A DNA stretch of 64,000 nt. It comes from Flavobacterium sp. SUN052 (GTDB taxonomy: Bacteria > Bacteroidota > Bacteroidia > Flavobacteriales > Flavobacteriaceae). Each line of letters opens with the position of its first letter. The stretch's first letter is position 1. Of the stretch, positions 30,476 to 50,796 are shown piece after piece. The translations under genes and the position numbers were made by a program. Location: the NCBI RefSeq assembly GCF_028867935.1, contig NZ_JAPQNS010000018.1:1-64000 (forward strand). Reading direction: 5' to 3'. The notes beneath the pieces were generated by a model that was not told where the DNA came from, made no database searches, and worked only from the letters and a program-made list of their open reading frames with translations.

Positions 30476-31582
30476 TTACGGTGTACCCCATACTTTTATG
30501 GCTGTATTGACCACTAATTCCATCTTTTTCCACTGGTCATCGTGGGTCAAATCGTTGCCATGATGCGTGGACGAAAACCCGCATTGTGGACTCACGCACA
30601 TGTTTTCGAGGGGCATATACTGGGCAGCTTCGTCGATCCGGCGAGCCATATCATCCACTGTTTCCAACTCTCTGAGCTTTGAAGAAATGATACCTAACAC
30701 AACCCGCTTGTTAGCCGGTACAAACCGGAGTGGAGCAAAATCACCACTGCGTTCGTCGTCATATTCGAGGAAGTACGCATCTACGTTGATGGAATTGAAC
30801 AGCACTTCGGCAACGGGTTCGTAACCGCCCTCCGCGAACCACGTGCTGCGGTAATTCCCCCGGCACAAGTGAATGCCCACCGTCAGATCATCGGGTCGGC
30901 CATCGAGGACTGAGTTAATCAGAGCCGCGTAAGTTTTGGGAAGCTCGTTGGGGTCTTCGCCCCGTTCAACGGCAGCAGCCCGCATTTTGGGGTCGCAGAG
31001 GTAGGCCAGATTCGTATCGTCTAGTTGCAGATATCGTAAGCCAGCTTTATACAAATGATCAATTTCTTCGCGGTAGGCAGCTGATAAATCATGGAAAAAC
31101 TCGTCCATGTCGGGATACGAGTTAATATCAATCGACTTACGGCCGCCCCTAAAATGCACCATCGTGGGCGATGGAATCGATACTTTCGGTGTTTGGCTCA
31201 CCACCGATTTCAGGTAATTAAAATCGGCCACCTGGATGTCTTTGGTGTGTTTTAGTTTTCCGGTTACACTCAGTTGAGGGGGCGTAAAACCGTCCTGGGC
31301 CACTTTGGCGTTAGGGTTGGCTCCAATGCCACCGGTAACGGTCACACCTTCCAGTTCTTTCAAAAAATCAAGGTGAAAATAATCCCGACGAAACTCACCG
31401 TCGGTAATTGATTTCATCCCCGTCGATTCCAGTTTGCTTACGGTTTCGGCAATGGCGGCATCTTCAATAGCCCGTAATTCGTCCGCTGAAATTTCGCCTT
31501 TTTTCCACCGTTCGCGGTTTTCTTTTACGGCTTGCGTTCTCAATAAACTGCCAACATGGTCGGCTCTAAATGGGAGATTCAT
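30476..31582 (-). CDS. MetE-C-like zinc methyltransferase family protein (cobalamin-independent methionine synthase II family)
   Basis: 368 residues, only the catalytic barrel of MetE. Zinc ligands can be read: GIHLCRGN (His and Cys), a Glu in FLEYDDERSGD, and a Cys in SPQCGFSS. It starts FRADHVGSLLR, typical of this stand-alone group. True MetE uses methyl-folate and homocysteine; stand-alone relatives also transfer alkyl groups from other donors. In a catabolic cluster it could accept a methyl group released from a methoxylated substrate, which is speculation. It is the last gene of the 16-gene cluster; 7-bp repeats precede its ATG. Confidence 0.85.
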   Translation of the reverse strand: MNLPFRADHVGSLLRTQAVKENRERWKKGEISADELRAIEDAAIAETVSKLESTGMKSITDGEFRRDYFHLDFLKELEGVTVTGGIGANPNAKVAQDGFTPPQLSVTGKLKHTKDIQVADFNYLKSVVSQTPKVSIPSPTMVHFRGGRKSIDINSYPDMDEFFHDLSAAYREEIDHLYKAGLRYLQLDDTNLAYLCDPKMRAAAVERGEDPNELPKTYAALINSVLDGRPDDLTVGIHLCRGNYRSTWFAEGGYEPVAEVLFNSINVDAYFLEYDDERSGDFAPLRFVPANKRVVLGIISSKLRELETVDDMARRIDEAAQYMPLENMCVSPQCGFSSTHHGNDLTHDDQWKKMELVVNTAIKVWGTP

Positions 31583-31620
31583 ATAAGATTTTAGATTTTG
31601 GATGTCGGATTTTGGATTAA
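31583..31620 (-). repeat. 7-bp phased repeat before the MetE-like gene
   Basis: The minus strand reads five heptads TTAATCC AAAATCC, GACATCC, AAAATCT AAAATCT, then TAT and the ATG. It is the same degenerate (AAATCCN) unit as at three other genes of the cluster. Confidence 0.6.
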
Positions 31621-31640
31621 TTACGGTTTATGAATTCTCA

Positions 31641-32414
31641 TTAAGCAAAAGCTCCCCCGTCAACGGGTAGAGCATGGCCGGTCATAAAGGTAGCTTCATC
31701 AGAACAAAGCCAGAGCGCTACATCGGCTACTTCTTCGGGTTGCCCCATGCGTTTCATGGCCTGATAGTTAATCGCCTGTTGTCGGGCTTCGGGGTTGTAC
31801 GCCAGTTTCCGGCGACCTTCCATGAGCATCGGGGTTTCGATAGCCGTGGGACAAAGGGCATTAATTCGGATGTTTTTAGTAGCGTATTCAATAGCCGCTG
31901 TACGGGTGATGCCCACCACCCCGTGTTTAGAAGCCGCATACGGCACGTTTTCGGGTTGGCCCCGCAGGCCAGCTGCTGAGGCTATGTTGACGATAGTTCC
32001 ACCGCCCTGCTTGAGCATTTGAGCCAGTTGACTTTTCATACAATACCAGGTTCCAGTCAGATTTACGGCCAACATTTGTAGCCAGGCACCTTCGGGGTAT
32101 TCATGGGTGGGGAGTGACAGCGTGCCTGCAATTCCGGCACTGTTTACGGCACAATCCAGCCAACCAAACGTCTCGACAGCAACAGTAATCATGTGCTCAA
32201 CCTGTTCCCTCTGGGCAATATCGACCGGTACGAAAACGCCTTTTCCACCCATCGCCAGTATGTCGAAAAGTGTCTTTTCACCGGCTTCTACATTCAGTTC
32301 GGCCACTACCACAGCGGCTCCTTCGCGGGCAAATGACAAGGCTGTTGCCCGGCCAATTCCCGATCCAGCTCCGGTGACGAGACATACTTTATTTGTAAAT
32401 CTGTTTCTACTCAT
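31641..32414 (-). CDS. Short-chain dehydrogenase/reductase
   Basis: 257 residues from ATG 32412-32414; the longer frame would begin at a TTG. Classical SDR features: NAD site TGAGSGIGRA near residue 14, NNAG equivalent CAVNSAGIAG, catalytic Ser in IVNIASAAG, YxxxK in YAASKHG, and a C-terminal TGHALPVDGG. It probably oxidises or reduces an alcohol/ketone intermediate of the cluster pathway. It lies 11 bp after the SMP-30 gene. Confidence 0.92.
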   Translation of the reverse strand: MSRNRFTNKVCLVTGAGSGIGRATALSFAREGAAVVVAELNVEAGEKTLFDILAMGGKGVFVPVDIAQREQVEHMITVAVETFGWLDCAVNSAGIAGTLSLPTHEYPEGAWLQMLAVNLTGTWYCMKSQLAQMLKQGGGTIVNIASAAGLRGQPENVPYAASKHGVVGITRTAAIEYATKNIRINALCPTAIETPMLMEGRRKLAYNPEARQQAINYQAMKRMGQPEEVADVALWLCSDEATFMTGHALPVDGGAFA

Positions 32415-32425
32415 GGTTGGTATTG

Positions 32426-33493
32426 TTACCAATGAATCATAGGTTGGCCCGCCACGGGGCTTCGGAAATAGGGAATTGTAGTACCCCGTAAGCTACCTAG
32501 ATAAACGGTTTGCAAATCAGGTCCGCCGAAGGTCAGACTGGCCATCCAGGGGGCAATGGTGCCGTGGGTTGCGCCCAGTATTTCAGGAGTCAGCGTACCT
32601 GCCTCAAAAGTCTCAAACAAACGCTTGGCTGTTTCGGGTTGACTATCGTCGAGCAACGTCAGAATTTCACCGTTAGGGGTGAGCGCAATCAACACGTCCG
32701 TAAAAATCAGGGTGATCCAGAGATTACCAAAGGCGTCAAAGGCAAAGCCGTCGGGGAAGCCTCCTAAACTTTCGGGGCCATACGTTTCCCGGTCGGTTAG
32801 GGTGCCGTTTGGTTGTAGCCGCAGTCGGGAAATTTTATGGCCAGTACTTTCCACTACGTACAACCATTCTTCGTCTGGGTCAAAACGAATTTCATTGGTG
32901 CCGCAGAAGCCTTCAGCCGCAATTCGCACCCCATTTTCATCCATTACGGCGATATATCCGTCGGTGGCTTTGGTGGTCAATTGGGCTGTCCAGGGTTGCG
33001 TGCGGGTTGTCACAGAGAACCAGATTCGTCCTTTGGAATCACGCAGGGGAAAGTTGGCTTTTCCGAGGAGTTGGCCATTAATACCGATGCAGAGCGTTGT
33101 CAGATGACCGGTGCGGGTCATTCGCTGGATGGAATCGGTGCCCCAGTTGGCTATAATAAAATCGCCGTTAGTGTCGAAACAAAGGCCGTTTGGAAGCGAG
33201 CCCTGCGCTTGAACATACCTGTCTTCGAAGTTTACCTCACCCGAATCGTCGGACCGCCCCGACCCCCTCTCCTGAAAACCAGGAGAGGGGGTGGCAAACG
33301 GGGTAATAAGCTGCTGCGACCCATCTGGATTCAGGCGCATAACACCGCCACGGGCATCGGCCGTCCAGATTGTTCCGTCGCGCTCGGCCAGAATACATTC
33401 CGGGCGTTGCAAATCGTGACCGAGAAACTGAATCACTTCCCGGTCAACTTGCCAGCCTTTCAGCGGATTTTCCTTGTGGTGCTTAATGAACAT
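32426..33493 (-). CDS. SMP-30/gluconolactonase-family lactonase with in-frame REP-like insertion
   Basis: 355 residues from ATG 33491-33493. Six-bladed propeller with the family metal-site features PECILAERDGTIWTAD (Glu), SLPNGLCFDTNGD (Asn), CGTNEIRFDPDEE and GFPDGFAFDAFG (Asp). It should hydrolyse a lactone. Between blades one and two is an unusual stretch ATPSPGFQERGSGRSDDSGE; the DNA encoding it contains a perfect 13-bp palindromic repeat, so a repeat element seems to have inserted without breaking the frame. It starts 7 bp after the monooxygenase stop. Confidence 0.9.
   Translation of the reverse strand: MFIKHHKENPLKGWQVDREVIQFLGHDLQRPECILAERDGTIWTADARGGVMRLNPDGSQQLITPFATPSPGFQERGSGRSDDSGEVNFEDRYVQAQGSLPNGLCFDTNGDFIIANWGTDSIQRMTRTGHLTTLCIGINGQLLGKANFPLRDSKGRIWFSVTTRTQPWTAQLTTKATDGYIAVMDENGVRIAAEGFCGTNEIRFDPDEEWLYVVESTGHKISRLRLQPNGTLTDRETYGPESLGGFPDGFAFDAFGNLWITLIFTDVLIALTPNGEILTLLDDSQPETAKRLFETFEAGTLTPEILGATHGTIAPWMASLTFGGPDLQTVYLGSLRGTTIPYFRSPVAGQPMIHW
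33262..33292. repeat. REP-like palindrome inside a coding sequence
   Basis: ACCCCCTCTCCTG (33262-33274), a 5-nt loop AAAAC and CAGGAGAGGGGGT (33280-33292) make a perfect 13-bp stem. The CCCCTCTCCT core is of the kind found as extragenic palindromes in many Bacteroidota genomes. Here it lies inside the SMP-30-type gene, encoding a low-complexity loop. Confidence 0.75.
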
Positions 33494-33500
33494 TGTAGGG

Positions 33501-34634
33501 TCAAATCGGTGCACCCATAGCGCCAAGTGTTTTACCCATCAGAGCCCCCATGTTGGCTCCTTCGGGAAGTTGGCCCTGCCACTCCAGTTGCTCCCATTCG
33601 CCCAGAGTATTCGACGCATCGACCACCATCTTGCACCGACCAAACCGGCGGTTCATGAAGTTCTCCAGAATCACAGGCACAGGATCGTCCGACCGAACCA
33701 ATTCGCCCAGCACCACGGCATCCTCAATGGCTAATCCCGCTCCCTGACCCAATTGGGGAATGGTGGCATGAACGGCGTCACCAATGAGCAACACCCGGTT
33801 ATTGTACCAGGGAGCGGGTAGCAGCAACGTTTCCAGTGGGCGATAAATCACGCCTTTCGGGTCAGTGATTTGATCCACAACGGCGCGTACCATCGGGGTT
33901 TCGTATTCGGCGAGTAGCGCTTTCAGGCGTGGCACCAGCTCTGCTTCGGGAATCTTTGGGTCTTCGCCCTCGGCCGAGACCACGAACATATACATGGTGT
34001 CGGCTGTCATTGGGATCAAACCCACTTTAGTTTTCTTGCCAAAAAAGATGTAGCCAGTATCCAGATCAGCGGGGCGTGGGAAAGCATAGCGCCAAACCGA
34101 CTGACCAGTATAACGCGGTTTGTAATCGCCTAACACCAAACTACGAACGTGTGAGTAAACGCCATCGGAACCCACAACCAGATCATACTGCTCAGTGCTG
34201 CCATCGGTAAACGTCACTGTCACAGCGTCGGGTCCGTTATCCAGCGTTGCCACGGTTAAACCCATGCGAATGGGAACGTTGTTAGCTGCGGCTCCTGCGA
34301 GTAGTACCTCGTGCAAAATACGACGCGATATACCATTATGAACGGGCAGACGGCCCATTGGTGGCGTACCTGTCTCCGCAAATTTGAAGCCGTTGGACGC
34401 GCACATTTTCACTGGTCCGTAGGGCGAACCGCGCTCCATGCAGGCATCAGCCAGACCCAGTGAGTCAAGGGCACGTAACGCATTAGACGGCTGAATAATG
34501 CCCACACCGTAGACGTTGAAGCTAGGGTGAAGCTCAACGATTTCTGCATCGATACCGGCCTGCCGCAGGGCAATACCTGTCGATAAGCCGCCAATGCCGC
34601 CCCCGACAACGAGAGCTTTTTTTATAAATGTCAT
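33501..34634 (-). CDS. FAD-dependent aromatic-ring monooxygenase (salicylate hydroxylase-like)
   Basis: 377 residues of the class A flavoprotein hydroxylases. FAD motif VVGGGIGGLSTGIALRQAG at residues 9-27, DG motif DLVVGSDGVYSHVRSL, and GD motif LLIGDAVHATIPQLGQGAGL. Such enzymes use NAD(P)H and oxygen to hydroxylate phenolic rings. Lying in one operon with an extradiol dioxygenase and FAA hydrolase, it probably prepares a ring for cleavage. Degenerate 7-bp repeats fill the space directly upstream of its ATG. Confidence 0.93.
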   Translation of the reverse strand: MTFIKKALVVGGGIGGLSTGIALRQAGIDAEIVELHPSFNVYGVGIIQPSNALRALDSLGLADACMERGSPYGPVKMCASNGFKFAETGTPPMGRLPVHNGISRRILHEVLLAGAAANNVPIRMGLTVATLDNGPDAVTVTFTDGSTEQYDLVVGSDGVYSHVRSLVLGDYKPRYTGQSVWRYAFPRPADLDTGYIFFGKKTKVGLIPMTADTMYMFVVSAEGEDPKIPEAELVPRLKALLAEYETPMVRAVVDQITDPKGVIYRPLETLLLPAPWYNNRVLLIGDAVHATIPQLGQGAGLAIEDAVVLGELVRSDDPVPVILENFMNRRFGRCKMVVDASNTLGEWEQLEWQGQLPEGANMGALMGKTLGAMGAPI

Positions 34635-34636
34635 GT

Positions 34637-34749
34637 TGGTTATAGGATTTGGGTTTTGATATGTGGGATGTCAGTTTGAGGCTGTATGGCGGAAGAGGAC
34701 TGGCGTGTGCAAAAAATCCGCAATCCGCAATCCGACATCCTAAATCATT
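34637..34749. repeat. Inverted pair of 7-bp phased repeats between cyclase and monooxygenase genes
   Basis: On the minus strand, heptads GACATCC CACATAT, CAAAACC CAAATCC and TATAACC run up to AAC-ATG of the monooxygenase. On the plus strand, AATCCGC AATCCGC, AATCCGA CATCCTA and AATCATT (34715-34749) overlap the stop codon of the cyclase gene. The two arrays face each other and can form a hairpin. Confidence 0.65.
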
Positions 34750-35503
34750 CAATTATGGCTACAGCCCGGCACCAGCCTGCACTGCCGCCTTTGATCTTGG
34801 CCGGGAAACAACTCACTTTGAAACCAAAAGGAGGTAACTGGTCGAGGTTGGCCAGCTTCTCGATCTGGCAGTATTCTTTCTCGCGGCCGACGTAATGAGC
34901 CGCCCAGATAACGCCGGGACGCGGATTGCTGAAATAATCTTCGGCCTGAATATGCAACGGAATATCCCATCCCCAGCCGTCGGTACCCATTACTTTAATA
35001 CCCTGATCGATCAGCCAGTGCGTGGCTTCGGCCGAAGCTCCGACGTGGATTTTTACAAAGTCGTCATCGTGCAGACGCTTGTCGGCGTCGCAGCGGATCA
35101 GGACAATATCGAATGGTTTAAGGGTATAATTGATCGCAGCCAGTTTCTCTTTCAGGTCGTCGGACGAGAAGCAGTAGCCATCGGGTTTGTCGGTGAAATC
35201 GATGACCACACCATCGTGGAAGAACCAGTCGAGCGGCATCTCGTCGATGGTGCGCGAGGGTTTGCCCTCTGAGGTTGGGAAATAGTGCCAGGGTGCATCG
35301 ATGTGCGTTCCGGTGTGGCCGGTTATGTACAGAAACTCGCCAGCGGGACCATTTCCTTCGAGGAAAACGCCTTCTGAAGCACCACCGAAAAGTTTAGAAC
35401 CCATCTTTTTGGCTCCTTCCTTGTGGTCTTCGTAATCAATTCGAGTGGGTAACGGTTCTTTGATGTCGGTCGAGATCGTTACCGATAAGTCGATTATTTT
35501 CAT
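34745..35503 (-). CDS. Cyclase-family metal hydrolase (kynurenine formamidase-like)
   Basis: 252 residues. The metal signature ITGHTGTHIDAPWHYFP (HxGTHxDxPxH) near residue 60 is intact. Family members hydrolyse formylkynurenine, isatin or lactone-like rings with Zn or Mn. Here it could open a cyclic or lactone intermediate in the ring-cleavage pathway; an amide substrate cannot be excluded. The gene starts 30 bp after the FAA hydrolase stop. Confidence 0.88.
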   Translation of the reverse strand: MKIIDLSVTISTDIKEPLPTRIDYEDHKEGAKKMGSKLFGGASEGVFLEGNGPAGEFLYITGHTGTHIDAPWHYFPTSEGKPSRTIDEMPLDWFFHDGVVIDFTDKPDGYCFSSDDLKEKLAAINYTLKPFDIVLIRCDADKRLHDDDFVKIHVGASAEATHWLIDQGIKVMGTDGWGWDIPLHIQAEDYFSNPRPGVIWAAHYVGREKEYCQIEKLANLDQLPPFGFKVSCFPAKIKGGSAGWCRAVAIIE

Positions 35504-35533
35504 GGATTCAAAATGTCAACGTGTGTTCAAAAA

Positions 35534-36511
35534 TCATACGACGGTGTTTTTCAAAATGCCAATTCCCTCAATCTCCAGTTCTACCACATCACCCGGTTCG
35601 AGGGGGCGGTGAACGGTGAAGTTATTTTCAATTAAGCTGCCCCAACCTACTGTTCCAGAGCCTAACATATCGCCGGGCATCAGGTTTACACCGTTCTCCG
35701 AAGCCCGTTCAATCATCTGCTCAAAATTGTAGTAGGCCGTTTTGTAATTGCCTTCACAAATGGTTGCACCGTTGATCCGGGTTCGCATCTTCAGGTCGAG
35801 CCGGTCGGTAGGGCCGTGGGGAAAACGTAGAGGAGCGGCAAAATCAGCTTCCGTGATCGTGCAGCGGTAAGCTTCCATTTCATCCGCAGTTACGATGCAG
35901 GGACCAATGGCATTGGCAAAATCTTTGCCCTTATGCGGCCCCAGCGGCACTTCCATCTCGCGCCGTTGAATAGCCCGCGCTGTCCAGTCGTTGAAAATGG
36001 TGTAACCAAAAATGTAGGGGCGTGCCTCTGTGGCTTTAATGTCGCTGCCCTTTTTGCCAATAATACAGCCTAGTTCCAGTTCAATATCCAGCTTGGTTTC
36101 GGTGGCGGGCCGCTTGATTTCGTCGTCGGGTCCGTAAATAGCCTGATGGTTGGTGAAATAGAAAATGGGCATCTCGTACCAGGCTGGTCCAATGGAGTGC
36201 CCAAACGACCGTGATGCATTGAGCATGTGCATCTCAAAACCAATATAGTCGCGGAAACTGCGCGGATTGGGCAACGGAGCCAGCAGCGTCACCTCACTCA
36301 TGGCGTGAGTCGGGGCGGCATTCTCCCAGTTATTATCCTGAATTAGCCTCCTGTACTGCTCATGATTGTCGATAAATGAGAGCATATCAGCGGGCAATGC
36401 ACCGTTGCTGATCTGGTGCATATCGACTACACCAGGAGACGAATCGCCGTCGGCTGTCAGCCAGCCCGCACGGGGCTGTTGGTCGGAGGTTTTGAAGGTT
36501 ACGAGTTTCAA
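35534..36511 (-). CDS. Fumarylacetoacetate hydrolase-family protein, TTG start
   Basis: 325 residues. The C-terminal FAH catalytic fold shows DIELELGCIIGKKGSDI (metal-binding Glu residues), FGYTIFNDWTARAIQRRE, FANAIGPCIVT and GDMLGSGTVGWGS. Members hydrolyse C-C bonds, decarboxylate or tautomerise diketo acids from ring cleavage. The start is TTG (36509-36511) giving the expected MKLVTF; no in-frame ATG exists nearby. Directly before it are 7-bp repeats, so the normal leader appears to have been replaced. Confidence 0.92.
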   Translation of the reverse strand: MKLVTFKTSDQQPRAGWLTADGDSSPGVVDMHQISNGALPADMLSFIDNHEQYRRLIQDNNWENAAPTHAMSEVTLLAPLPNPRSFRDYIGFEMHMLNASRSFGHSIGPAWYEMPIFYFTNHQAIYGPDDEIKRPATETKLDIELELGCIIGKKGSDIKATEARPYIFGYTIFNDWTARAIQRREMEVPLGPHKGKDFANAIGPCIVTADEMEAYRCTITEADFAAPLRFPHGPTDRLDLKMRTRINGATICEGNYKTAYYNFEQMIERASENGVNLMPGDMLGSGTVGWGSLIENNFTVHRPLEPGDVVELEIEGIGILKNTVV

Positions 36512-36632
36512 GGGATTTCGGATTGGAGATTTATAATGTCGGATTAACTGCTGACTGGTCTACTGATGCGGCCTGGGTTTGCGCTGGCGTCAGCAACAAA
36601 TCCCAAATCCGCGATCCTAAATCCCAAATCAG
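36511..36632. repeat. Inverted pair of 7-bp phased repeats between FAH and SDR genes
   Basis: Minus strand: AATCCGA CATTATA, AATCTCC AATCCGA and AATCCCT run from 36545 to 36511 and include the first base of the FAH start. Plus strand: AAATCCC AAATCCG, CGATCCT AAATCCC and AAATCAG (36598-36632) are perfectly phased and overlap the stop of the SDR gene. The two arrays can pair as a long stem. Confidence 0.7.
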
Positions 36633-37375
36633 TTTAGCGCTCTGCCGCCATCGACTGAAATGATGCTGCCGGTGGTGAAGGTGAGCGTTGTGGCTAGGGC
36701 GAGTACCGCGTTGGCTACATCATCGGGAGTGGCCAGGCAACCCAAGGGTGTTGCGTTTAGCTGCTTCTCTAAATAAACAGGATCAACGCGACTGGCATAG
36801 TCGCCCAGAACCCAGCCCGGTGAAACGGAAACGACCCGGATTTTTGGCGCTAACGCCCGTGCCAGTGAACGAGTCATGGAATCAATGGCGGCTTTAGACG
36901 CACAATAGGCCACGTTACTGCCAATGCCCGTTTGCCCCGCAATCGACGAAATATTGACGATCAGACCTCCAGATCCAGCCAATAGTAAGGGTTTGCAGGC
37001 CCGGATCATGGCAAACGAACCCCGCCAGTTGGTCTGAAAAATCGTGTCGATCCACTCGTCAGTCAGGCTATCCAGATCGTCGTGGGCAACGGGGGTAGTG
37101 ATGCCCGCATTGTTAACCAGCATATCCAGTTGGCCGTATGTATCGGTCAGGTAGGTGATCAAAGCAGCCACTCGCTCTGGGTTATTCACCGGGGCATGCA
37201 CAATAGCATGTCCGTTGCCGGGGAGCGTATCGAGCAGCCGTTGGGCTTTCTCGGCATCACTATTATAGGTGATCACGACGGAGGCTCCGTCTTCAGCTAA
37301 GTGTCGGCAAATGGCCGAGCCAATGCCGCCTGCTCCGCCCGTAACGAGGGCTATTTTGTTCTGTAACGCGGTCAT
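36629..37375 (-). CDS. Short-chain dehydrogenase/reductase
   Basis: 248 residues. NAD(P) site TGGAGGIGSAICRHL at residues 13-27, LVNNAGITTP, catalytic Ser in IVNISSIAG, YxxxK as YCASKAA, and TTGSIISVDGG near the end. A second redox enzyme of the cluster. Its stop codon lies within the phased repeat array; its start is 10 bp after the MFS stop. Confidence 0.92.
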   Translation of the reverse strand: MTALQNKIALVTGGAGGIGSAICRHLAEDGASVVITYNSDAEKAQRLLDTLPGNGHAIVHAPVNNPERVAALITYLTDTYGQLDMLVNNAGITTPVAHDDLDSLTDEWIDTIFQTNWRGSFAMIRACKPLLLAGSGGLIVNISSIAGQTGIGSNVAYCASKAAIDSMTRSLARALAPKIRVVSVSPGWVLGDYASRVDPVYLEKQLNATPLGCLATPDDVANAVLALATTLTFTTGSIISVDGGRALN

Positions 37376-42890: not shown

Positions 42891-42903
42891 AGAATTTCGA
42901 ATA

Positions 42904-43902
42904 TTAAATATCAACCGGTTTGACCACGCCATCGGTCAGGCCTAGCTTCTTGCCTTTGCCCATTTCGGCGAATGGATTGGCAGTGCCCCAGGCATCGTTT
43001 GGGTTGTCTTTGATGTAGTGAATGTCGGGGCCGTGATCGGGGGCAAAAATGAGCCGGGCACAGGCGTAGAACTCAAATAAGATTCCGCTGCCGGGTTCAA
43101 TGATATAGATGAAAAAGCCTTCGTCGGCTTTGTGGCGGGTGGGGGCACCCATGACGCTTTTGTAGCCTTTTTCGAGGAAGTAATCGAGGGCAATCAGCAC
43201 CTCTTCGCGACTGTCAAAATTCCAGGCGATGTGATTGAACGTACCCAGGCCCGGCCCTTCGATATTGGGGTCGGTGAACACAGCAATGTCATGCGAGAGG
43301 TTGCCGATTGTCCACAGGCCACCGATGGGCGGAATCTCGTCGCTCATCCGTACTTCGTCGGGGTTTTTAAGGCCCATACCTTTCCAGAACTCTTTTTCTT
43401 TCTGATACTGGAATTTGGCGACCATGTACGTGATGTGGTCGAACCGGCGGGGGTTGACCCCAATCCGGCGATTGCTGGCGTAGCGGTCGGCGTAGATGCT
43501 GCCCCGTTCACCGGTTTCACGCAACCAGACCACATCCCAGAATACCTCGTGCGTGTGTCCATCAGGCGACTGGAACCGGTACGCCCTGCCATGCCCCAAA
43601 TCCCCCTCAACCCAGCCTAAGCCAGCCCCGATCGATTCAAGATAGGCTACGCATTCTTCCAGCGCTTCGGGGCTGTCGGCTCGCCAGCCGAGGTGTCCCA
43701 GGCCGTTGGTTTCGCGGTAGGTTACTTTCAGGGTGTGGTGGAAATAATCGCCCCAGGCGCGAAAATAAACAGAGCCATGCTCATCGCGGCCGGTTTCGTC
43801 CAACCCAACTACGTCGCGCAGGAAGTGAACCGACTTTTCTACGTCGGGTGAATAAATCTCAATGTGAGCCAGTTGCGATAGGTAATGTGGGTTCTTAGCC
43901 AT
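42904..43902 (-). CDS. Two-domain extradiol (type I, VOC) ring-cleavage dioxygenase
   Basis: 332 residues from ATG 43900-43902; a longer frame exists but is not protein-like. Two VOC modules: AHIEIYSPDVEKSVHFL and, in the C-terminal half, the iron ligands H156 (RRFDHITYM), H224 (TFNHIAWNF) and E277 (GILFEFYAC). The intact 2-His-1-Glu triad at the usual places for BphC/CatE-type enzymes indicates an active Fe(II) or Mn(II) dioxygenase cleaving a catechol-like ring next to its hydroxyls. 7-bp repeats lie right upstream of the ATG. Confidence 0.9.
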   Translation of the reverse strand: MAKNPHYLSQLAHIEIYSPDVEKSVHFLRDVVGLDETGRDEHGSVYFRAWGDYFHHTLKVTYRETNGLGHLGWRADSPEALEECVAYLESIGAGLGWVEGDLGHGRAYRFQSPDGHTHEVFWDVVWLRETGERGSIYADRYASNRRIGVNPRRFDHITYMVAKFQYQKEKEFWKGMGLKNPDEVRMSDEIPPIGGLWTIGNLSHDIAVFTDPNIEGPGLGTFNHIAWNFDSREEVLIALDYFLEKGYKSVMGAPTRHKADEGFFIYIIEPGSGILFEFYACARLIFAPDHGPDIHYIKDNPNDAWGTANPFAEMGKGKKLGLTDGVVKPVDI

Positions 43903-43937
43903 TGGATTTCGAATTGGGGATGTATGATTTCGGATAG
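43903..43937 (-). repeat. 7-bp phased repeat before the dioxygenase gene
   Basis: The minus strand reads CTATCCG AAATCAT, ACATCCC CAATTCG, AAATCCA and then ATG directly. The unit and phase are those seen upstream of the MetE-like, monooxygenase and FAH genes. Confidence 0.6.
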
Positions 43938-43967: not shown

Positions 43968-44852
43968 TTATTTTTTCAATAGTCCATTCAGGTTTAGCCA
44001 GTCGCCGAAGCGATCGATCCAGGCATCGGTGGGTAGGTTTTGTTTTCGCATACCGAAACCGTGGCCGCCTTTCTGGTAGATGTGCAATTCGGCGATTTTC
44101 TTTGCAGCCAGCCAATCGTTATACAGTTTGGTACTGTGTGGGGCCAGTCCCAACTGATCATCGGAAGCGGCACAAACAAATAGGGGAGGAGCGTCGGCGG
44201 GAACTACCTGTTTGGCAATGGCCATCTCGCCGAGATACGGGTAAATAGGAGCCAGAAAATCGGGCCGGTTAGCGGGTGAATAATCAAAACCAACGCCCAT
44301 TGTGACAGTACCGCCCGCCGAAAAGCCCATCAAACCAACGCGGTTTGTCGCAATGCCAAAGTCTTTAGCGTGTTGCCGAACGTATTCAATGGCGCGTTTC
44401 CCGTCGGCAATAGCAAGGGGAATGACGGGCGCGTTTTCTTCGTCCAGCTTCTTGAAATCAGCCATTTTGGCCATCAGTTCAGTAACCGGGTTGTCGGTCA
44501 TGCTGCGCACCACGCGGTATTTTAGCACAAAAGCGGCTACTCCTTTGGCGTTGAGCCATTTGGCGACGTCAATGCCTTCCGAATCAATAGAAAGGGTATG
44601 AAAGGCTCCGCCGGGGGCCACAATGACGGCAGTACCCGTGGCCAGTTCGGGCTTGGGGAGGTAGGCCGTAATGGTTGGGGTGGCTACGTTATAAATGACC
44701 CGCGTATTGAATGGGTTCTTGCTGTTTTCTGCTTCGTCCCAGGTCCAGCTTTCTGAACCGGGTGCTTTGCCTTCATACAATCGGATTACCTGCTGGGCGT
44801 GCGCAAACTGGGTTGCCAGTAAAAGCAGCGCGAGTGTTCTAATGCGAATCAT
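43968..44852 (-). CDS. Exported alpha/beta-hydrolase esterase (BD-FAE/acetyl-esterase-like)
   Basis: 294 residues with a signal peptide (LALLLLATQFAHAQQ). Esterase features: VIVAPGGAFHTLS (oxyanion hole), nucleophile Ser in VGLMGFSAGGTVTMG, acid in FVCAASDDQLGL, His in YQKGGHGFGMR. Relatives are acetyl-xylan or feruloyl esterases. It may cut ester groups from the glycosylated substrate before uptake. It is 12 bp downstream of the GH106 gene. Confidence 0.88.
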   Translation of the reverse strand: MIRIRTLALLLLATQFAHAQQVIRLYEGKAPGSESWTWDEAENSKNPFNTRVIYNVATPTITAYLPKPELATGTAVIVAPGGAFHTLSIDSEGIDVAKWLNAKGVAAFVLKYRVVRSMTDNPVTELMAKMADFKKLDEENAPVIPLAIADGKRAIEYVRQHAKDFGIATNRVGLMGFSAGGTVTMGVGFDYSPANRPDFLAPIYPYLGEMAIAKQVVPADAPPLFVCAASDDQLGLAPHSTKLYNDWLAAKKIAELHIYQKGGHGFGMRKQNLPTDAWIDRFGDWLNLNGLLKK

Positions 44853-44864
44853 AGGATAAGAGAG

Positions 44865-47800
44865 TTATCGACTTAATACCTGCACCGGTCCCATCAGGCC
44901 CGATGGCAAGAGGGGCGAGTTGGCTTGATAAAAAGGCATCGTAGTAAAGGTCGTTTTGGTTTTGACATCAGCTTGGGCATCGCCAATGAGCCGATTCACC
45001 CAGAGGTTTGTTACGTTCACTTCCAGCGTGTTCGAACCCGCTTTGAGCGCGTCGGTCACGTCGATTCGAAACGGCTTTTTCCAGACTGTACCTACGTTTT
45101 TGCCATTCACAATGACCTCGGCCATGTTCTTCACATCGCCCAAATCCAGCACGTAGGTTTGTCCTTTTTTCATCGTTGGTACCGTGAACGACTGGGTGTA
45201 TGCAGCCGTGCCGGAGAAGTAGCGGATGCCAGCCTCCGATTGGTCGGACAGAGAAGCCAGCTTCGTTAATGTGGTGGTTGCTGGTGCTCCACGTCCTTCC
45301 TGAAAAGCTACATTCCAGGAACCAGTTAACTGGACTACGGATGACTCGGTCACGGCTGGTTTGGTGTACGAAGCCACGCTGGTTTTTGCCCCAAATACAA
45401 TGAAACAGGCATCCCAGGGCGCAAACTCCAGCGGAATGATCGTCCGCCCATTTTCGATCCGATACGACACTTTCTCCGTTTTCCCGGTCTCTGGATTCCA
45501 CCGCTCTGGAACTTTGCCCGTTACCCGGAAGCTGATTTCGGCGGAATTGGGGCTTTCGCTGCGGCTGTTGAGCCAGTAGAAGTCCGATTGGGCATTTTCT
45601 GTCTGGCGGTGAACAAATAGTACGTCGGCTTTACTGTTTTTAACGATTACATCTTCCGCTACATTCATGGCCTTCAATACCTCCGCTACAGGTTTGGTCG
45701 ACACGGTTGGCTGGCTCCAGATCTGGTTGGCCAGCGAAGTGAACGCGGTTGCATCGTCGCTCAGGCTGGGCGACCGAAGGGGTTTTGCGCCTACGATGTG
45801 AATACCGGCGCTCGCCAGTTCGCCCATTCTTTTCAGCACAGGCAGGGTCATGTACCGTGCCGACGAGTCGAGCACCAATAGGCGGTAAGCCATCCCACTT
45901 GGAGCTACCAACCGGCCGTTTTGGGGGGTGATCACGTCGCGGATAACCGAGGCATTGGCAAAATCAAACTCATAGCCAGTTGGGATTGTCGGCAGCTTTT
46001 GGGCGCAGATTTGGGTGATGTTGTTATTTTCGCCGTAGTAATACAGAATATCAACCACGGCTTTACCCTGCTGCAACAGGTACGAACTGCGGCTTAAGTA
46101 ATCGACCCAGGCTTTGGCAGGTTCGGCCCAGGTTTCCTGCCGGGTAAAATACTGCCCGAAAGGCCCTAGCGAAAAACCGGGCTTTTTGTCGTCTAAAGGC
46201 TGGTGAACGGAGGTATGCACCACAAAGCGGTTTAGTCCCGACGCCATTTCCATGTCGGCGGTGCGTTTCAGCTTTTCGGGATGCCAACTGAAGGCATTAC
46301 CGATAGAGGTCATTGATTCGGCGGCAACTAAGTTCTGACCGTAGATGTGTGCAACCGAAGCGGCTTCGCGGATGTCGCCCATGCTACGGGCTTCCTCGTT
46401 AGCTCCACCAGCCAGACTACCAGGTGTCCACATGGCCGACATGGGTACATCAGCTTTGCGTTTCACGTCCATGCCATCGGCCAAGTAAATCCGCCCGTTT
46501 TCGTGCGATTCGGTGTAGCGTTTCATACCCCGCTTTTTCAAGGCTTCACCAATAGCCTCGTAGTGGTTCTCGACGATCAGCTCGCCAATGGTTTTGCGGT
46601 AATCCCACAGGAATTTTTCACTGGCCTCAGCGCTCTGGATTACGCGGCCCGCCAGTACCGGAAGCCAGGGGCGCAAATCGTACCCACGCCGACGGGCAAA
46701 CTCGCTGGGCAGGTCTTTGGTCCAGGTCATGTGGCCCGCTTCGTAACTGTCGAGAACCATGTACTGCAACCCCTGCGCACCCATCAGGCCACCGGTAGCG
46801 TCTTTGTACATGTCCAGGTAGGTTTCGATGTAGCGTTGAACGGCTGCTTTGTCGAGTTTATCCACTTCCAGTCCGGTTGCTTCGGGCGAAGCGGGGTGGT
46901 TTTGCCGACCTGTGAGCGTATAGCCCAGACGCATAATTACCCAGTTACCCGCTGGAACATCCCAGTTTAGTGTACCATCGGCCGTCATTTTACTCGTCAG
47001 GTCAACCACATCGCTGGTTGGAATGGCGTCGGCGGGTACTTCATTAATGAGCGAGTGCGTACTTTCTTTCCAGGGACTAAAACCCGCTTTTTGCTCAAAC
47101 AGGTCGACCCGGTCGGTGTTGTACAATACTAGTTCGGCCACGTTTACCCCTTCAGCTTTTGGCGGCTCCATTTTTGCCCCTGTCATAGCCGCAAAAGGGT
47201 TTCCCATTGGCGGTAGCGTCGTGAATGTAAAGCGGAAGAACCGGGTCGTTGTCGGCACAAGCCGCATGGTGCTTTGCGGTACGGTGCTGCCTTTGATCGG
47301 AACCACCGTGCGGAAGTTTACGCCATCGTCGCTAACTTGCAGGCTCCGGTTGTCGGGTGCGCCATTAAATTCTTCGAGGGGTAAATGGCTGGCTCCTACA
47401 ATGCTGAATGCTTTAACCGTTTGCGGCCGGTCGAATTCATATTGTATCCACATGTCTTTTCCCACCTCTACGGGGGGCAGCAACTGAGTGGTTGACAGGT
47501 CGCCATCGGTGAGGCCGGCCAGCGTAAACGTGCCCCCGCTCGATGTGATCTTGGGATTCAGGGCCGTCAGTGACTGCTCAACGGCAGGCAGTCGGTAAGC
47601 AATAACGGCCGCGTCGGCGTAATAAGTGGGTAGCTTATTTTCCGTGGCGCTACTCAACATACTGGATCCCATTGCTACATTCTGGAAGGTGCCAGTAGTG
47701 TTTGATGGCTGCGGCAGCGTGCCGGTAAAGGGTTTACCACCTGTGACATGCGTTTCGGTCCAGACGTATTTTTTCATGCCATCGCTGGGTTGCACCCACG

Positions 47801-48182
47801 GCCCACCTGTAACGCTCCAGCCTGGCGAACCGGCAATGGCCATTTCGAGACCCAGTTGGCTGGCCAGATTGGTTGTGAATTTGAATGCGTCTTTCCAATC
47901 GGGAGTCATGAACACCAGCTTCTTTGGGACAACCACCGGCGTAAATAGGCTGGCGTCGAAGTTCTGGAAACCACCAATACCTACGCGTTTCATCCATTCG
48001 AGGTCTTTTTGAATACCCTCCTTGGTGATGTTTCCGTTCATCCAGTGCCACCATACACGGGGCCGGGCGGCATTGGGTGGTGTTTGGAAATTTTTCTGAA
48101 TTGTGTTTTGAGCATGTCCATTGGATACACCAATGGTAAACAGCGCAAAGCCAATGTATAAGATACGAGGATACAGGTTCAT
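44865..48182 (-). CDS. GH106-type alpha-L-rhamnosidase
   Basis: 1105 residues, a typical length for GH106, with a signal peptide (ALFTIGVSNGHAQ). The N-terminal signature PRVWWHWMNGNITKEGIQKD and WMKRVGIGGFQNFD begins the barrel; MVLDSYEAGHMTW and MKRYTESHENGR carry acidic residues in the region where GH106 catalytic glutamates lie. The C-terminal beta-sandwich holds a galactose-binding-like domain (LDLGDVKNMAEVIVNGK). It should release alpha-rhamnose from plant glycosides or pectin side chains. Confidence 0.88.
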   Translation of the reverse strand: MNLYPRILYIGFALFTIGVSNGHAQNTIQKNFQTPPNAARPRVWWHWMNGNITKEGIQKDLEWMKRVGIGGFQNFDASLFTPVVVPKKLVFMTPDWKDAFKFTTNLASQLGLEMAIAGSPGWSVTGGPWVQPSDGMKKYVWTETHVTGGKPFTGTLPQPSNTTGTFQNVAMGSSMLSSATENKLPTYYADAAVIAYRLPAVEQSLTALNPKITSSGGTFTLAGLTDGDLSTTQLLPPVEVGKDMWIQYEFDRPQTVKAFSIVGASHLPLEEFNGAPDNRSLQVSDDGVNFRTVVPIKGSTVPQSTMRLVPTTTRFFRFTFTTLPPMGNPFAAMTGAKMEPPKAEGVNVAELVLYNTDRVDLFEQKAGFSPWKESTHSLINEVPADAIPTSDVVDLTSKMTADGTLNWDVPAGNWVIMRLGYTLTGRQNHPASPEATGLEVDKLDKAAVQRYIETYLDMYKDATGGLMGAQGLQYMVLDSYEAGHMTWTKDLPSEFARRRGYDLRPWLPVLAGRVIQSAEASEKFLWDYRKTIGELIVENHYEAIGEALKKRGMKRYTESHENGRIYLADGMDVKRKADVPMSAMWTPGSLAGGANEEARSMGDIREAASVAHIYGQNLVAAESMTSIGNAFSWHPEKLKRTADMEMASGLNRFVVHTSVHQPLDDKKPGFSLGPFGQYFTRQETWAEPAKAWVDYLSRSSYLLQQGKAVVDILYYYGENNNITQICAQKLPTIPTGYEFDFANASVIRDVITPQNGRLVAPSGMAYRLLVLDSSARYMTLPVLKRMGELASAGIHIVGAKPLRSPSLSDDATAFTSLANQIWSQPTVSTKPVAEVLKAMNVAEDVIVKNSKADVLFVHRQTENAQSDFYWLNSRSESPNSAEISFRVTGKVPERWNPETGKTEKVSYRIENGRTIIPLEFAPWDACFIVFGAKTSVASYTKPAVTESSVVQLTGSWNVAFQEGRGAPATTTLTKLASLSDQSEAGIRYFSGTAAYTQSFTVPTMKKGQTYVLDLGDVKNMAEVIVNGKNVGTVWKKPFRIDVTDALKAGSNTLEVNVTNLWVNRLIGDAQADVKTKTTFTTMPFYQANSPLLPSGLMGPVQVLSR

Positions 48183-48220
48183 GGAGTTTTAGGAAAGCAA
48201 GTGGGCATTGATTATTCAGG

Positions 48221-48514
48221 TCAATCCAACGGTTTGTAGTCTATTTCTAAAAAGTCTTCTACTGAGTTCAGCCAGACGTTTTGCACAAAATGAACATGGT
48301 CGGGATGGTTCGTATACTGGTCGTATTGGTCAACTGTCTCGAACGTCATCAGGATACCATAGTCGAAGTTGTTTTTGGGGCTGGTTTGCGCCAGAATTTC
48401 AAAATTCTGAACACCAGGAATTGAGGCTAATTTGTTGGCCTCATCGAAAAATATCTGTTTTTCGAGCGTGCTGGTTTCGCTTTTTAGGCTGAAAATGACC
48501 GAGTGTCGTATCAT
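48221..48514 (-). CDS. Dabb (stress-responsive alpha/beta barrel) protein
   Basis: 97 residues: IRHSVIFSLKSETS at the start, then FEILAQTSPKNNFDYGILMTFE and a late YTNHPDHVHFVQNVW. This is the Dabb ferredoxin-like fold; the H-P-x-H segment is conserved. Relatives include olivetolic-acid cyclase-type proteins and unknown stress proteins. Being inside the cluster, it could act on an aromatic or polyketide-like intermediate, but that is only a hint. Confidence 0.85.
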   Translation of the reverse strand: MIRHSVIFSLKSETSTLEKQIFFDEANKLASIPGVQNFEILAQTSPKNNFDYGILMTFETVDQYDQYTNHPDHVHFVQNVWLNSVEDFLEIDYKPLD

Positions 48515-48588
48515 GACTTTTCTTTATGGAGTAGTCCCTACTCGACTAGCAGGGCAAGTGATGATAGTTGGATTTTGTTTTATAAGCC

Positions 48589-50796
48589 TCACTTTATCAG
48601 CATGGTTTTTTGCAGCCGAATATCGTTTGAAGCCCCGCCTACCAGCATGACAACTGGTTCTTCTTCTACCTCCCACTGGTTTGTTTTTTCATTCCACCAG
48701 GCCAATGATTCCGCTTTTACCGGCACTGAAACGATTTTTGTTTCGCCCGGTTTTAAGAAGACCCGACTGAATCCTTTCAGTTCTTTTTTCGGTCGTGAGA
48801 TAGTTGACTGAGGGTGCTGTACATATAGCTGCACCACTTCGTCGCCCGCCCGGCTCCCTGTGTTTTTTACCTTAACCTGAACCGTTGCTGTGCCATTCTT
48901 AGGAATGGTTTCAGCGCTTAGTTTGAGATCAGAATAGGCGAAATTGGTGTAGCTGAGTCCATAGCCAAAGGGATACAGCGGTTCTTCGCTGGCGTACAGG
49001 TAGGTGCGCCCATGTCGAATATCGTAGTCGGAGAGCGGGGGGAGATGAGCCAGCGATTTAGGCCATGTTTGGGTTAGCCTTCCGGCTGGGTTGTAATCGC
49101 CAAAAATGACATCGGCGATCGCCGAACCCTGCTCCTGAGCAGTATGGGTAGTATGAAGAATTGCCGGTACATGCGCCTGTGTCCAGTTAATGGTGTAAGG
49201 AAAGCTGGATACGAGTACCACTATGGTATTAGCGTTTGCCGCAAACACCTCCTTAACGAGGTCTTCGGAAGGGATATCCATCGATTGACGATCACGACCT
49301 TCCCGGCCATCACCGTTTTCGGGGCAGGGCTTGGTACTCCCATCCCGATTGAAAGCCTCCCCAATATTCGTGGTTCCACACATGGGGTCATTGCCAATCA
49401 CGACAACAACAAAATCAGCAGATTTGGCTGCGTTTACGGCGACCTGTCCCTCATTGTCGGCCGCATAGTTGACCGTTACCGAAGGGCCTACTTTTTCTTT
49501 TATTGCCTGAAGCACTGTGCTGGCGTAGGGCGTGGGACCACTGTAAAAATCGGGTGATACCTGCACCGCTCGTGGGCCAATAACGGCTATTGATTTGATG
49601 GCTCCTTTGGTGCGTGGTAAAAAATCGCGTTCGTTTTTTAACAATACCACCGACTCCTGAGCTACCTGACGGGCCACCGCTTTGTGTTTTTCGGATAGCC
49701 AGGGTTCTGGCTCGCCCGGCTGTCCAATGCGGGTGTATGCCACTTGGGCGGGCGGGTCGAGTAAACCCAGTTTAATTAGGGTTTTAATTTTTCCGTGGAT
49801 TGCCGCATCAATGTCGGTTTCGGCTAGCTTTTTATCCGCAATGGCCCCTTTTATAATGTTTGGGATAGAATCGCCAAAAGTTAGAAATTGATTCATTCCC
49901 AGCTTAATGGCAGCCGCGTAGGCATCCCGATTTGTTTTGACGTATTTGTGCTGGTTGACCAGGTGGCTCATGGCCCCTGCATCCGAAGAAACAATCCCGG
50001 TAGCTCCCCATTCTTTGGCGAGCACATCTTTCAGCACCGGGTGAATCGTCATGGGTACTCCATTCCAGGCGTTGTAAGCAGCCATATACGACTCTGCCTT
50101 TCCTTCTGTGAATGCCATGCGAAAGGGGACGGAGTAATATTCGCGCATTAAGCGAATATCAAAGTCAGACGACGAACGGGCGCGGGTTGTCTCGTTGCTG
50201 TTGGCAAAAACGTGTTTGAGCAAGGCCGCAGCCTGCCAATAACGCGGGTCGTCGCCCTGAATGCCTTTAGTCAACGCCACAGCCATAGTCCCAGTCAAGA
50301 AAGGGTCTTCGCCAAAGCTTTCATCATTCCGACCCCAACGCGGATCGCGTGCCAGATCAGAAGCTGGTCCCCACAGTACCAGTGTATTGCGCAGATAGTC
50401 TTTATGCTGACTCAGATAGCGAGCTTCGTAGCCCATAACCGCTCCAGCGCGTTTAATCAGGTCGGGGTTCCAGGTTTCACCCATACCATATACCTGGGCA
50501 AACGAGGTGGTCTTAATTGGCTTTTTGGCCGGGTCCGGCCTGTCATAGAATTTTACCTGATGAATAGCTTCGGCATTACCAGGCGATTTTATGCCCAGAC
50601 GAGGCACGTCAAAATCAGTAATCAGTCTGATTTTTTCATCAAGAGTGAGCAGCGTAATCAGGTTAGCGACTCTACTTTCTGTGGCTAGATTCGGGTTTTG
50701 AAACGGGTAAGTTGTCTGGGCCTGAACAGGTGGGCTAGCCGTCAAACCAAATAGGGCACCAACAACCAGTGAATAAGCGTATGTCTTTTTTCTCAT
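48589..50796 (-). CDS. GH3-family beta-glucosidase
   Basis: 735 residues with signal peptide (LFGLTASPPVQAQ). GH3 barrel: GPASDLARDPRWGRNDESFGEDP, and the nucleophile Asp in TGIVSSDAGAMSHL. An alpha/beta sandwich follows, then a C-terminal fibronectin III-like domain (VKVKNTGSRAGDEVVQLYVQHP). A periplasmic or surface beta-glucosidase or beta-xylosidase. First gene of the minus-strand cluster, 275 bp from the AraC gene; that gap (50797-51071) is AT-rich and probably holds the cluster promoter, though no perfect -7 box is seen. Confidence 0.93.
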   Translation of the reverse strand: MRKKTYAYSLVVGALFGLTASPPVQAQTTYPFQNPNLATESRVANLITLLTLDEKIRLITDFDVPRLGIKSPGNAEAIHQVKFYDRPDPAKKPIKTTSFAQVYGMGETWNPDLIKRAGAVMGYEARYLSQHKDYLRNTLVLWGPASDLARDPRWGRNDESFGEDPFLTGTMAVALTKGIQGDDPRYWQAAALLKHVFANSNETTRARSSSDFDIRLMREYYSVPFRMAFTEGKAESYMAAYNAWNGVPMTIHPVLKDVLAKEWGATGIVSSDAGAMSHLVNQHKYVKTNRDAYAAAIKLGMNQFLTFGDSIPNIIKGAIADKKLAETDIDAAIHGKIKTLIKLGLLDPPAQVAYTRIGQPGEPEPWLSEKHKAVARQVAQESVVLLKNERDFLPRTKGAIKSIAVIGPRAVQVSPDFYSGPTPYASTVLQAIKEKVGPSVTVNYAADNEGQVAVNAAKSADFVVVVIGNDPMCGTTNIGEAFNRDGSTKPCPENGDGREGRDRQSMDIPSEDLVKEVFAANANTIVVLVSSFPYTINWTQAHVPAILHTTHTAQEQGSAIADVIFGDYNPAGRLTQTWPKSLAHLPPLSDYDIRHGRTYLYASEEPLYPFGYGLSYTNFAYSDLKLSAETIPKNGTATVQVKVKNTGSRAGDEVVQLYVQHPQSTISRPKKELKGFSRVFLKPGETKIVSVPVKAESLAWWNEKTNQWEVEEEPVVMLVGGASNDIRLQKTMLIK

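Follow-up and report, generated by a model that had tools for sequence, protein, structure and literature searches.

What does a run of genes that joins sugar removal to aromatic ring cleavage do in a member of the Bacteroidota, and is it peculiar to one lineage? The question was raised by an earlier note on a stretch of 64,000 nt from Flavobacterium sp. SUN052 (NZ_JAPQNS010000018.1, positions 1-64,000; hereafter the window), in which open reading frames (ORFs) were called and scanned with Pfam and NCBIfam models. There are 16 genes in the cluster, all on the - strand. Fifteen lie within 30476-50796 and one, for an AraC-family regulator (51072-51998), lies just outside. The sixteen co-directional genes of the families named in the earlier note were thus confirmed, but its list had left a MetE-like gene (PF01717) unnamed. 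The cluster is probably an operon through which a phenolic glycoside of plants is used, via opening of the A-ring; the likeliest substrate is a flavonoid O-glycoside that carries rhamnose. The earlier interpretation named this model and is partly supported; the substrate, the order of the steps and the roles of the HisD-like, SDR and MetE-like proteins are what we infer. Plant litter and root exudates are rich in flavonoid glycosides. In the literature covered, what is known of A-ring opening genetically comes from Proteobacteria, examples being the fde genes of Herbaspirillum seropedicae and the ifc genes of Variovorax sp. V35.

Conservation of the core genes

Four genes form the core. They encode a two-domain VOC extradiol dioxygenase (DIOX; 42904-43902, 332 aa, ATG at 43902), a C-C hydrolase of the FrsA/2,6-dihydroxypseudooxynicotine hydrolase (DHPON) kind (CCH; 41778-42932), a class A flavin monooxygenase of the aromatic hydroxylase type (FMO; 33501-34634), and an FAA hydrolase, an acylpyruvate-type C-C hydrolase (FAH; 35534-36511). 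A search of genome contigs with DIOX returned 67 loci, 65 from Bacteroidota and 2 from Bacillota (by title), so the cluster is not special to a Spirosoma-like bacterium as had been proposed. These loci were taken with 10 kb flanks, so their ends are cut there. The full-length set consists of the 44 loci, out of the 64 in L028-L091, that span 20.9 kb or more; it represents 42 genomes (L038/L091 and L039/L084 share one each). A gene was counted as present at an identity of at least 40% over at least half of the query. DIOX, CCH, FMO, and FAH are all present in 44/44 of the full-length loci, and any tracked glycoside hydrolase (GH) family, another GH3 group included, is present in 19. The aromatic core is therefore steady and the sugar-removing part variable. 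The remaining genes range widely: a cyclase-family metal-dependent hydrolase (CYC) in 27 of the 44, AraC in 26, the HisD-like dehydrogenase and the first SDR oxidoreductase (SDR1) in exactly the same 21, the MFS transporter and the second SDR oxidoreductase (SDR2) in 17 each, a TonB receptor in 16, the esterase in 15, ABM in 14, SMP-30 in 9, GH106 in 7, and GH35 in 2. The GH3 type of the window is in none of the 44, and it is present in L021 and L031. The earlier note had proposed a one-piece unit running from rhamnoside to ring fission, and had named scatter of the genes into unrelated contexts in relatives as a test. The core is not scattered and stays together in every full-length locus, but the glycosidases come and go.

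The same pairing is seen in a 395-genome sample of the phylum that includes the window's own genome. DIOX at 66% identity or more was found in five genomes (G000, the window's own, G228, G409, G425, and G068), and CCH at 54% or more in exactly the same five. At E <= 0.001 the two proteins have matches in 13 and 102 of the 395, respectively. Chance co-location of the core was considered and is rejected by the 44/44 loci and by this matching presence. Outside the Bacteroidota the set is less complete, as the Paenibacillus locus has no FMO match and the Bacillus locus has no FAH match. Relatives of CCH also occur on plasmids of Variovorax RA8, Rhodococcus USK13, and Variovorax paradoxus; the full gene set is not in the stretches of these that were examined. 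An FAH and a short VOC gene lie near the one in Variovorax RA8, where no FMO or cyclase is annotated.

The fate of the product can be inferred from the genes that accompany the cluster. In Emticicia and Hymenobacter the cluster is found on plasmids. The Hymenobacter monticola plasmid carries GH3, GH106, esterase, GH43, and TonB receptor genes on one strand and AraC, GH1, DIOX, CCH, HisD, SDR, FAH, ABM, CYC, and FMO genes on the other. Its block continues into pcaHG, pcaB, pcaD, pcaC, 4-hydroxybenzoate 3-monooxygenase, a CoA-transferase, and pcaF. The Hymenobacter PcaH scores above the NCBIfam cut-off, and the PobA above the subfamily model and under the equivalog model (511.1 of 538.7). A PobA homologue (59%) is also found at the cluster end in Fibrella forsythiae. 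In the 395-genome sample, PcaH at 56% identity or more was found in the five DIOX/CCH genomes and in G220; 78 genomes have a match at E <= 0.001, the others being at 45% or less. The one-sided Fisher value for co-occurrence is 7.7e-11, uncorrected for kinship, and the five genomes are not independent, two being near the window's lineage. PcaH at 59-88% identity is present in 24/24 cluster-holding genomes, five of them from marine genera, that were hand-picked from the 67 loci and are mostly isolates with long contigs. The window's genome possesses a pobA homologue (57%), pcaH (79%), and a probable pcaG at C23:371998-375588. Together these observations point to 4-hydroxybenzoate or protocatechuate as a product, which is what the B-ring of a flavonoid should yield.

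Proposed route and variable front ends

The genes are transcribed in the order AraC, GH3, GH106, esterase, DIOX, CCH, HisD-like, GH35/DUF5597, MFS, SDR1, FAH, CYC, FMO, SMP-30, SDR2, and MetE-like. Intergenic gaps run from -29 to +117 bp with the DIOX start set at 43926, except for 275 bp between AraC and GH3 and 406 bp between GH3 and GH106. The GC content of the cluster is 0.523, against 0.468 in the left flank and 0.493 in the right. The operon is probably inducible through the AraC-family regulator at its head (PF12833 2.5e-20). A scan of the window for Bacteroidota-type promoters gave 6 matches, one of them 47-76 bp before the AraC start (52045-52074, -); the scan was made without a control and is given no weight.

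Signal-peptide-like N-termini, judged by eye, are found on four proteins and on none of the aromatic enzymes. The four are a GH3 glycosidase (48589-50796; PF00933/PF01915/PF14310), a protein of the GH106 alpha-L-rhamnosidase family (44865-48182; PF17132, 1114.7 bits), an alpha/beta-fold esterase resembling BD-FAE and acetylesterases (43968-44852; PF20434 6.6e-12), and a GH35/DUF5597 glycosidase of the beta-galactosidase family (38651-40408; PF18120; NF051902, 541.5 bits, cut-off 500). Once exported, these could strip sugars and acyl groups from the substrate. The aglycone would then be imported by the MFS transporter (37386-38615; PF07690 8.8e-45). Inside the cell, the FMO is predicted to hydroxylate the A-ring to a vicinal diol and DIOX to open the ring in extradiol manner. 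The product could be cut by CCH, FAH (PF01557 3.3e-52), CYC (34745-35503; PF04199 4.4e-35), and an SMP-30/gluconolactonase-like hydrolase (32426-33526; PF08450 5.3e-23) to central metabolites and a B-ring fragment. That fragment would pass as 4-hydroxybenzoate or protocatechuate into the beta-ketoadipate pathway, with the pobA and pca genes elsewhere in the genome. A locus that leads from sugar removal to ring cleavage, as the earlier note described it, is supported.

Other members of the cluster are less easily placed. The gene for the HisD-like NAD-dependent dehydrogenase (40455-41753; PF00815 6.2e-137) is a second genomic copy whose product is 36% identical to the other. Q250, H253, E318, H319, D352, and H412 are conserved in it; presumably these are metal ligands and catalytic residues. 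Together with SDR1 (36629-37375; PF13561 1e-55), it may oxidize an alcohol to an acid. SDR2 (31641-32432; PF13561 1.4e-64) is followed by the MetE C-terminal-like protein (30476-31582; PF01717 7.1e-16; NF005085, 462.4 bits, cut-off 313). An 84% homologue of the latter, cut by the locus end, closes the cluster of L029, and it was seen in no other locus. This gene has the weakest claim to belong to the cluster. On the Emticicia plasmid (L017:25888-26802), a uroporphyrinogen-decarboxylase-family gene is found near the cluster end, in the position of the MetE-like gene in the window. Both families fall into a single fold superfamily with methyl-transfer enzymes among its members, a hint at O-demethylation of methoxylated substrates.

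The residues H156, H224, and E277 that had been picked out as DIOX ligands are right for the 332-aa protein that starts at 43902, and they are invariant in 69/69 aligned sequences, the window's own among them. Its best solved relative is 9wgj (2.2e-44), and it scores 192.6 bits against TIGR03211, under the cut-off of 320.2, when scanned as the longer ORF from 44115. In the homologue and genome scans, the query carried 8 extra codons ahead of the ATG. VOC proteins from gallate-type operons on plasmids of Rhizobium, Agrobacterium, and Pantoea share 36-38% identity with DIOX, as does a Deinococcus VOC protein. The alignment of DIOX covers only 55 residues of an Azospirillum VOC (L110) and 122 residues of a Burkholderia VOC (L103), and the sphingomonad VOCs are 24% identical. 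Judged from sequence, the fde-like loci compared appear to have VOC proteins of a different subfamily from DIOX, which is closest to those of the gallate-type operons and Deinococcus. VOC proteins of distant lineages appear to serve similar gene sets, because DIOX barely aligns with the fde-like VOCs despite the shared kinds of genes.

In the Agrobacterium, Pantoea, and Rhizobium plasmids (L095:11227-14670, L096:6433-12981, and L097:11203-14697), the VOC genes adjoin genes for 4-oxalomesaconate tautomerase, CHA aldolase, and PIG-L or 4-oxalmesaconate hydratase. They are candidates for a VOC-type dioxygenase of gallate or a related compound. A gallate pathway for the window was rejected, as the tautomerase and aldolase families beside the nearest Pseudomonadota relatives of DIOX examined have no counterpart among the window's cluster genes in the Pfam and NCBIfam scans. 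The window also contains, 18 kb away from the cluster, a LigB-type extradiol dioxygenase-family gene (11917-12840, +; PF02900 2.7e-21), so that two families of ring-opening enzymes are represented in it.

The best solved relative of CCH is 2jbw, a DHPON hydrolase (E 2.6e-24). In an alignment of 67 rows, S244 is found in 66 and H362 in 65, with gaps in the remainder. D328, a tentative choice of Asp, is Asp in only 51 of the 67. CCH is 30-31% identical to the hydrolases of L103 and L110.

Upstream of the core, some relatives carry quite different genes. Genes of C-glycoside deglycosidase type, from one or more of the families c29, c30, and c31, are found there in six loci: L092 of Paenibacillus and L038, L051, L064, L080, and L090. 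In L064, the c30 and c31 proteins belong to PF19906, the C-glycoside deglycosidase beta subunit. A plasmid of Deinococcus aetherius has a run of an alpha-like subunit, a PF19906 beta subunit, and a GMC oxidoreductase, then VOC, CYC, FAH, and CCH, and it continues with two FAD enzymes, SMP-30, and SDR. The substrates reported for characterized enzymes of the C-glycoside deglycosidase family include flavonoid C-glycosides (PMC8563793). A further variant is a gene of the GH2 family (c50), which lies between SDR1 and the cyclase in L051, L046, and L059; the Pfam match is shown for L051:14866-16701. In nine loci of marine genera, a sulfatase family is found beside the core (Pfam shown for L065). 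The genera are Polaribacter, Maribacter, Arenibacter, Aurantibacter, Muricauda, Zobellia, Winogradskyella, and Pseudozobellia. An O-methyltransferase family is present in 7/9 of these loci and all four core genes in 8/9, L060 being cut off at DIOX. At the 40% identity threshold, no tracked GH is present in any of the nine; there are weak matches to a GH3-like (L068, 23%) and a GH1-like protein (L065, 29%).

On a tree of DIOX with 75 rows, the front-end labels require at least 7 changes. Thirty-one rows without a label were left uncounted, and L038 and L092, which have both GH and C-glycoside deglycosidase genes, were scored as the latter. The six C-glycoside rows require 6 changes, no fewer than shuffled labels do, and the sulfatase rows cluster. 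The Deinococcus and Bacillus rows sit on long branches. The tree fits a steady core whose front ends are exchanged; caution is due, as the loci end at their 10 kb flanks. There is about an even chance that the four core genes are a portable flavonoid-mineralizing module. It would be widespread in Bacteroidota and would recur, lacking some parts or with substitutes for them, in Bacillota, Deinococcota, and Pseudomonadota. Its front end would be swapped by habitat, with O-glycosidases in terrestrial and freshwater settings, sulfatase in marine flavobacteria, and C-glycoside deglycosidases here and there among lineages. Sulfated flavones occur in seagrasses, and the marine sulfatase is perhaps for these.

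Weighing the substrate

The flavonoid reading is favored by the likeness of the gene set to ifc and fde and by the C-glycoside deglycosidase partners in some relatives, which flavonoids would fit best. In Variovorax, IfcA is a group A FMO that converts daidzein to 8-hydroxydaidzein, and an ifcB mutant accumulates 8-hydroxydaidzein (PMC11069340). IfcB is a putative glyoxalase that is 65.8% identical to FdeC, and its authors liken ifc to the fde pathway for naringenin (PMC11069340). The cupins IfcD1 and IfcD2 act at a later step and are together needed in Variovorax to convert compound X3 (PMC11069340). FdeE is a C8 hydroxylase that accepts flavanones, flavones, isoflavones, and flavonols alike (PMC11303751). 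The paa, pca, and cat genes of H. seropedicae are named as possible users of naringenin intermediates (PMC4440368).

Several points weigh against a flavonoid as the substrate, or against the cluster as the route for it. The recombinant IfcA was restricted to isoflavone aglycones and did not accept flavones, flavanones, or flavonols; recombinant IfcB was weakly active in vitro and gave little product; and the DHPON-hydrolase-like gene in the ifc cluster is dispensable in Variovorax (PMC11069340). A match in kinds of genes therefore leaves the substrate unfixed. HisD is not among the ifc and fde genes as described in the covered parts of these papers (PMC11069340, PMC11303751, and PMC4440368). 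None of the 16 window genes matched a cupin domain in the Pfam scan; among related loci, 14/71 have a cupin family. The poor alignment of DIOX with the Azospirillum and Burkholderia VOCs and its apparent nearness to gallate-type VOCs count on the same side, as does the loose association of glycosidases with the core. The pobA and pca genes of the window's genome are unlinked to the cluster. G068 has DIOX, CYC, and AraC; its CCH lies at a distance of about 21 kb from DIOX, and the 20 kb around DIOX gave no match to FMO or FAH. Finally, no assayed enzyme of the Bacteroidota set was found in the literature covered.

The same logic of deglycosylation, hydroxylation, ring cleavage, and release of protocatechuate could serve a glycoside that is not a flavonoid, such as that of a dihydrochalcone, xanthone, stilbene, coumarin, or lignan. 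Varied aromatics are substrates of class A FMOs and of DHPON-type C-C hydrolases, and a spread of this sort is seen among the solved relatives. The ifc/fde scheme leaves HisD and the extra SDRs unexplained, and the dioxygenase appears to belong to another VOC subfamily. Such a substrate is nevertheless considered rather unlikely, given the gene-set match and the deglycosidase partners that fit flavonoids best.

Two further readings move parts of the cluster away from aromatic glycosides. The freed sugar could be used by an oxidative L-rhamnose pathway (LRA1/2/5/6-like) made up of SDR, SMP-30, and FAH, which would leave only FMO, DIOX, and CCH as aromatic enzymes. The oxidative L-rhamnose pathway does have this mix of SDR, SMP-30, and FAH enzymes, which the cluster matches, and FAH has a weak match to 2,4-didehydro-3-deoxy-L-rhamnonate hydrolase (81.4 bits, cut-off 500). 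Yet FAH is present in 44/44 full-length loci, only 7 of which have GH106. SMP-30 is 58-68% identical in Azospirillum and Deinococcus loci with no rhamnosidase annotated in the stretches shown, and the Pfam and NCBIfam scans gave no sugar-acid dehydratase family among the window's cluster genes. This reading was judged unlikely, and very much so. Some versions of the cluster, chiefly marine ones, might instead use a phloroglucinol-type substrate such as algal phlorotannins, with the flavonoid link being secondary. The nine marine-genus loci (Maribacter, Zobellia, Arenibacter, and others) with a sulfatase and without a tracked glycosidase would suit this, as would a dioxygenase nearest to gallate-type operon enzymes. 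Phlorotannins are without a B-ring, so the PcaH found in 24/24 cluster genomes, the five marine ones included, would go unexplained, and this reading is held to be highly improbable.

If the flavonoid reading is true, many soil, freshwater, and marine Bacteroidota carry a route from glycoside to protocatechuate, and the front ends give a lead to the sugars or sulfates that each of these species can remove. The FMO, the dioxygenase, and the HisD-SDR pair are offered as enzyme candidates, and it becomes directly testable who mineralizes flavonoids. Beyond what the earlier note held, the analysis adds the conservation of the core, the likely product, a family of related loci, and a corrected kinship of the dioxygenase and lineage spread.

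Setting and comparison with known systems

The cluster had been described as lacking SusC and SusD. There is no PF14322 (SusD-like_3) domain within the window (C10:1-64000), the other SusD model, PF07980, not having been searched. The genome has 57 PF14322 domains over the cut-off, only one of them on the cluster's contig (104608-105222). ORFs of at least 700 aa in the window are one AcrB-like protein, GH3, GH106, and one TonB-dependent receptor; no TonB receptor of SusC size was found among the window ORFs. The description holds for the window but not for all relatives, as the TonB receptor found in 16/44 of them is like that of Hymenobacter, which has a SusC-like domain order. The window's own TonB-dependent receptor (52104-54338, +) is divergent beside the AraC gene and has no carboxypeptidase-like domain; its best matches are to heme/siderophore models, below their cut-offs. 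It is probably outside the operon and unrelated to it.

Bearing on a possible mobility of the cluster, besides the plasmid-borne copies and the GC content above that of both flanks, a tyrosine recombinase gene is present at 26098-27294. On the other side, 3 kb beyond the AraC gene, are EutB (ethanolamine ammonia-lyase large subunit) and then a DUF1345 protein (54981-57048, +). EutB has matches of 74% in three Fibrella genomes and of 70-71% in two Spirosoma genomes, and none in one Runella and two Flavobacterium genomes. EutB, a protein from outside the cluster, was used for this placement because a search for ribosomal RNA gave none in the window's genome and one in only 1 of 8 relatives. DIOX is 96% identical to its Fibrella counterpart; with the EutB identities and a genome of 8.1 Mb, this sits poorly with the kinship assigned to the genome, whose label may be wrong, and suggests a bacterium of Fibrella/Spirosoma type. 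In F. forsythiae, the EutB copy lies at 545977-547329 of a contig, past the full length (348773) of the one that bears the cluster, so the two are not neighbors. Farther on are an FGE-sulfatase/DinB-domain protein and a histidine-specific methyltransferase (58451-60771, +), which we take to be EgtB/EgtD-like; their probable role is ergothioneine synthesis.

Loci of Burkholderia anthina (L103) and Azospirillum (L110) serve as presumed representatives of the fde type, chosen for their gene content and for the gene order of fde. The FMO of the window scores 415.7 bits against NF005313 (PRK06847; cut-off 372), and those of L103 (535.4), L110 (553.2), L109 (476.6), and L098 (455.5) also pass. The window's FMO thus shares the PRK06847 subfamily with its counterparts in the loci of Burkholderia anthina, Azospirillum B510, Croceicoccus, and Deinococcus. 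Azospirillum B510 has a row of CCH, VOC, Rieske, FMO, SMP-30, CYC, and FAH, with identities to the window of 41% for FMO, 58% for SMP-30, 41% for CYC, 31% for CCH, and 26% for FAH. SMP-30 is 68% identical to the protein of the Deinococcus locus. Across the similar loci, the window's FMO is 40-46% and its cyclase 41-45% identical where present, the latter being 41% for L103 and L110. Croceicoccus marinus has a row of FMO, VOC, CCH, GH106, and TonB receptor, with a GH106 that is 42% identical to that of the window. A Sphingobium plasmid has a row of FMO, VOC, CCH, CYC, and FAH, and a beta-glucosidase gene is nearby.

The likeness to fde that had been suggested therefore stands for the gene set (FMO, C-C hydrolase, cyclase, and FAH in both stand-ins, and SMP-30 in Azospirillum) but not for the dioxygenase, which appears to be of another VOC subfamily than those of the stand-ins. 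The stand-ins also have LysR where the window has AraC, the Rieske gene of Azospirillum has no counterpart among the 16 window genes, and the window's block has genes for sugar removal. In the accounts covered, fde is described as an FMO-type 8-hydroxylation of the A-ring followed by its dioxygenation, which is the course proposed here. The ifc cluster, compared through its published description, shares a group A FMO, a glyoxalase/VOC-type dioxygenase, a DHPON-hydrolase-like gene, and an oxidative A-ring route. It differs in its IfcD cupins, and the window has glycosidases, HisD, cyclase, FAH, and SMP-30.

The clusters for C-glycoside deglycosylation (dgp, dfg, and CarBC; PMC8563793) have a counterpart in such genes upstream of the core in six relatives and in the Deinococcus run. 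Unlike these, the window's cluster genes have no PF19906 in the Pfam scan and carry O-glycosidase families instead. Polysaccharide-utilization loci of Bacteroidota resemble the cluster in their glycosidases and regulator, and in the TonB receptor of the 16 relatives, but the window has no SusD-like_3 domain and most of its cluster genes are for aromatic breakdown. No description of the cluster in Bacteroidota was found in the open-access literature searched, most subscription journals being outside the coverage. The kind of pathway is itself known from ifc and fde; what appears to be new in this locus is its proposed joining, in Bacteroidota, of oxidative A-ring flavonoid catabolism to deglycosylation.

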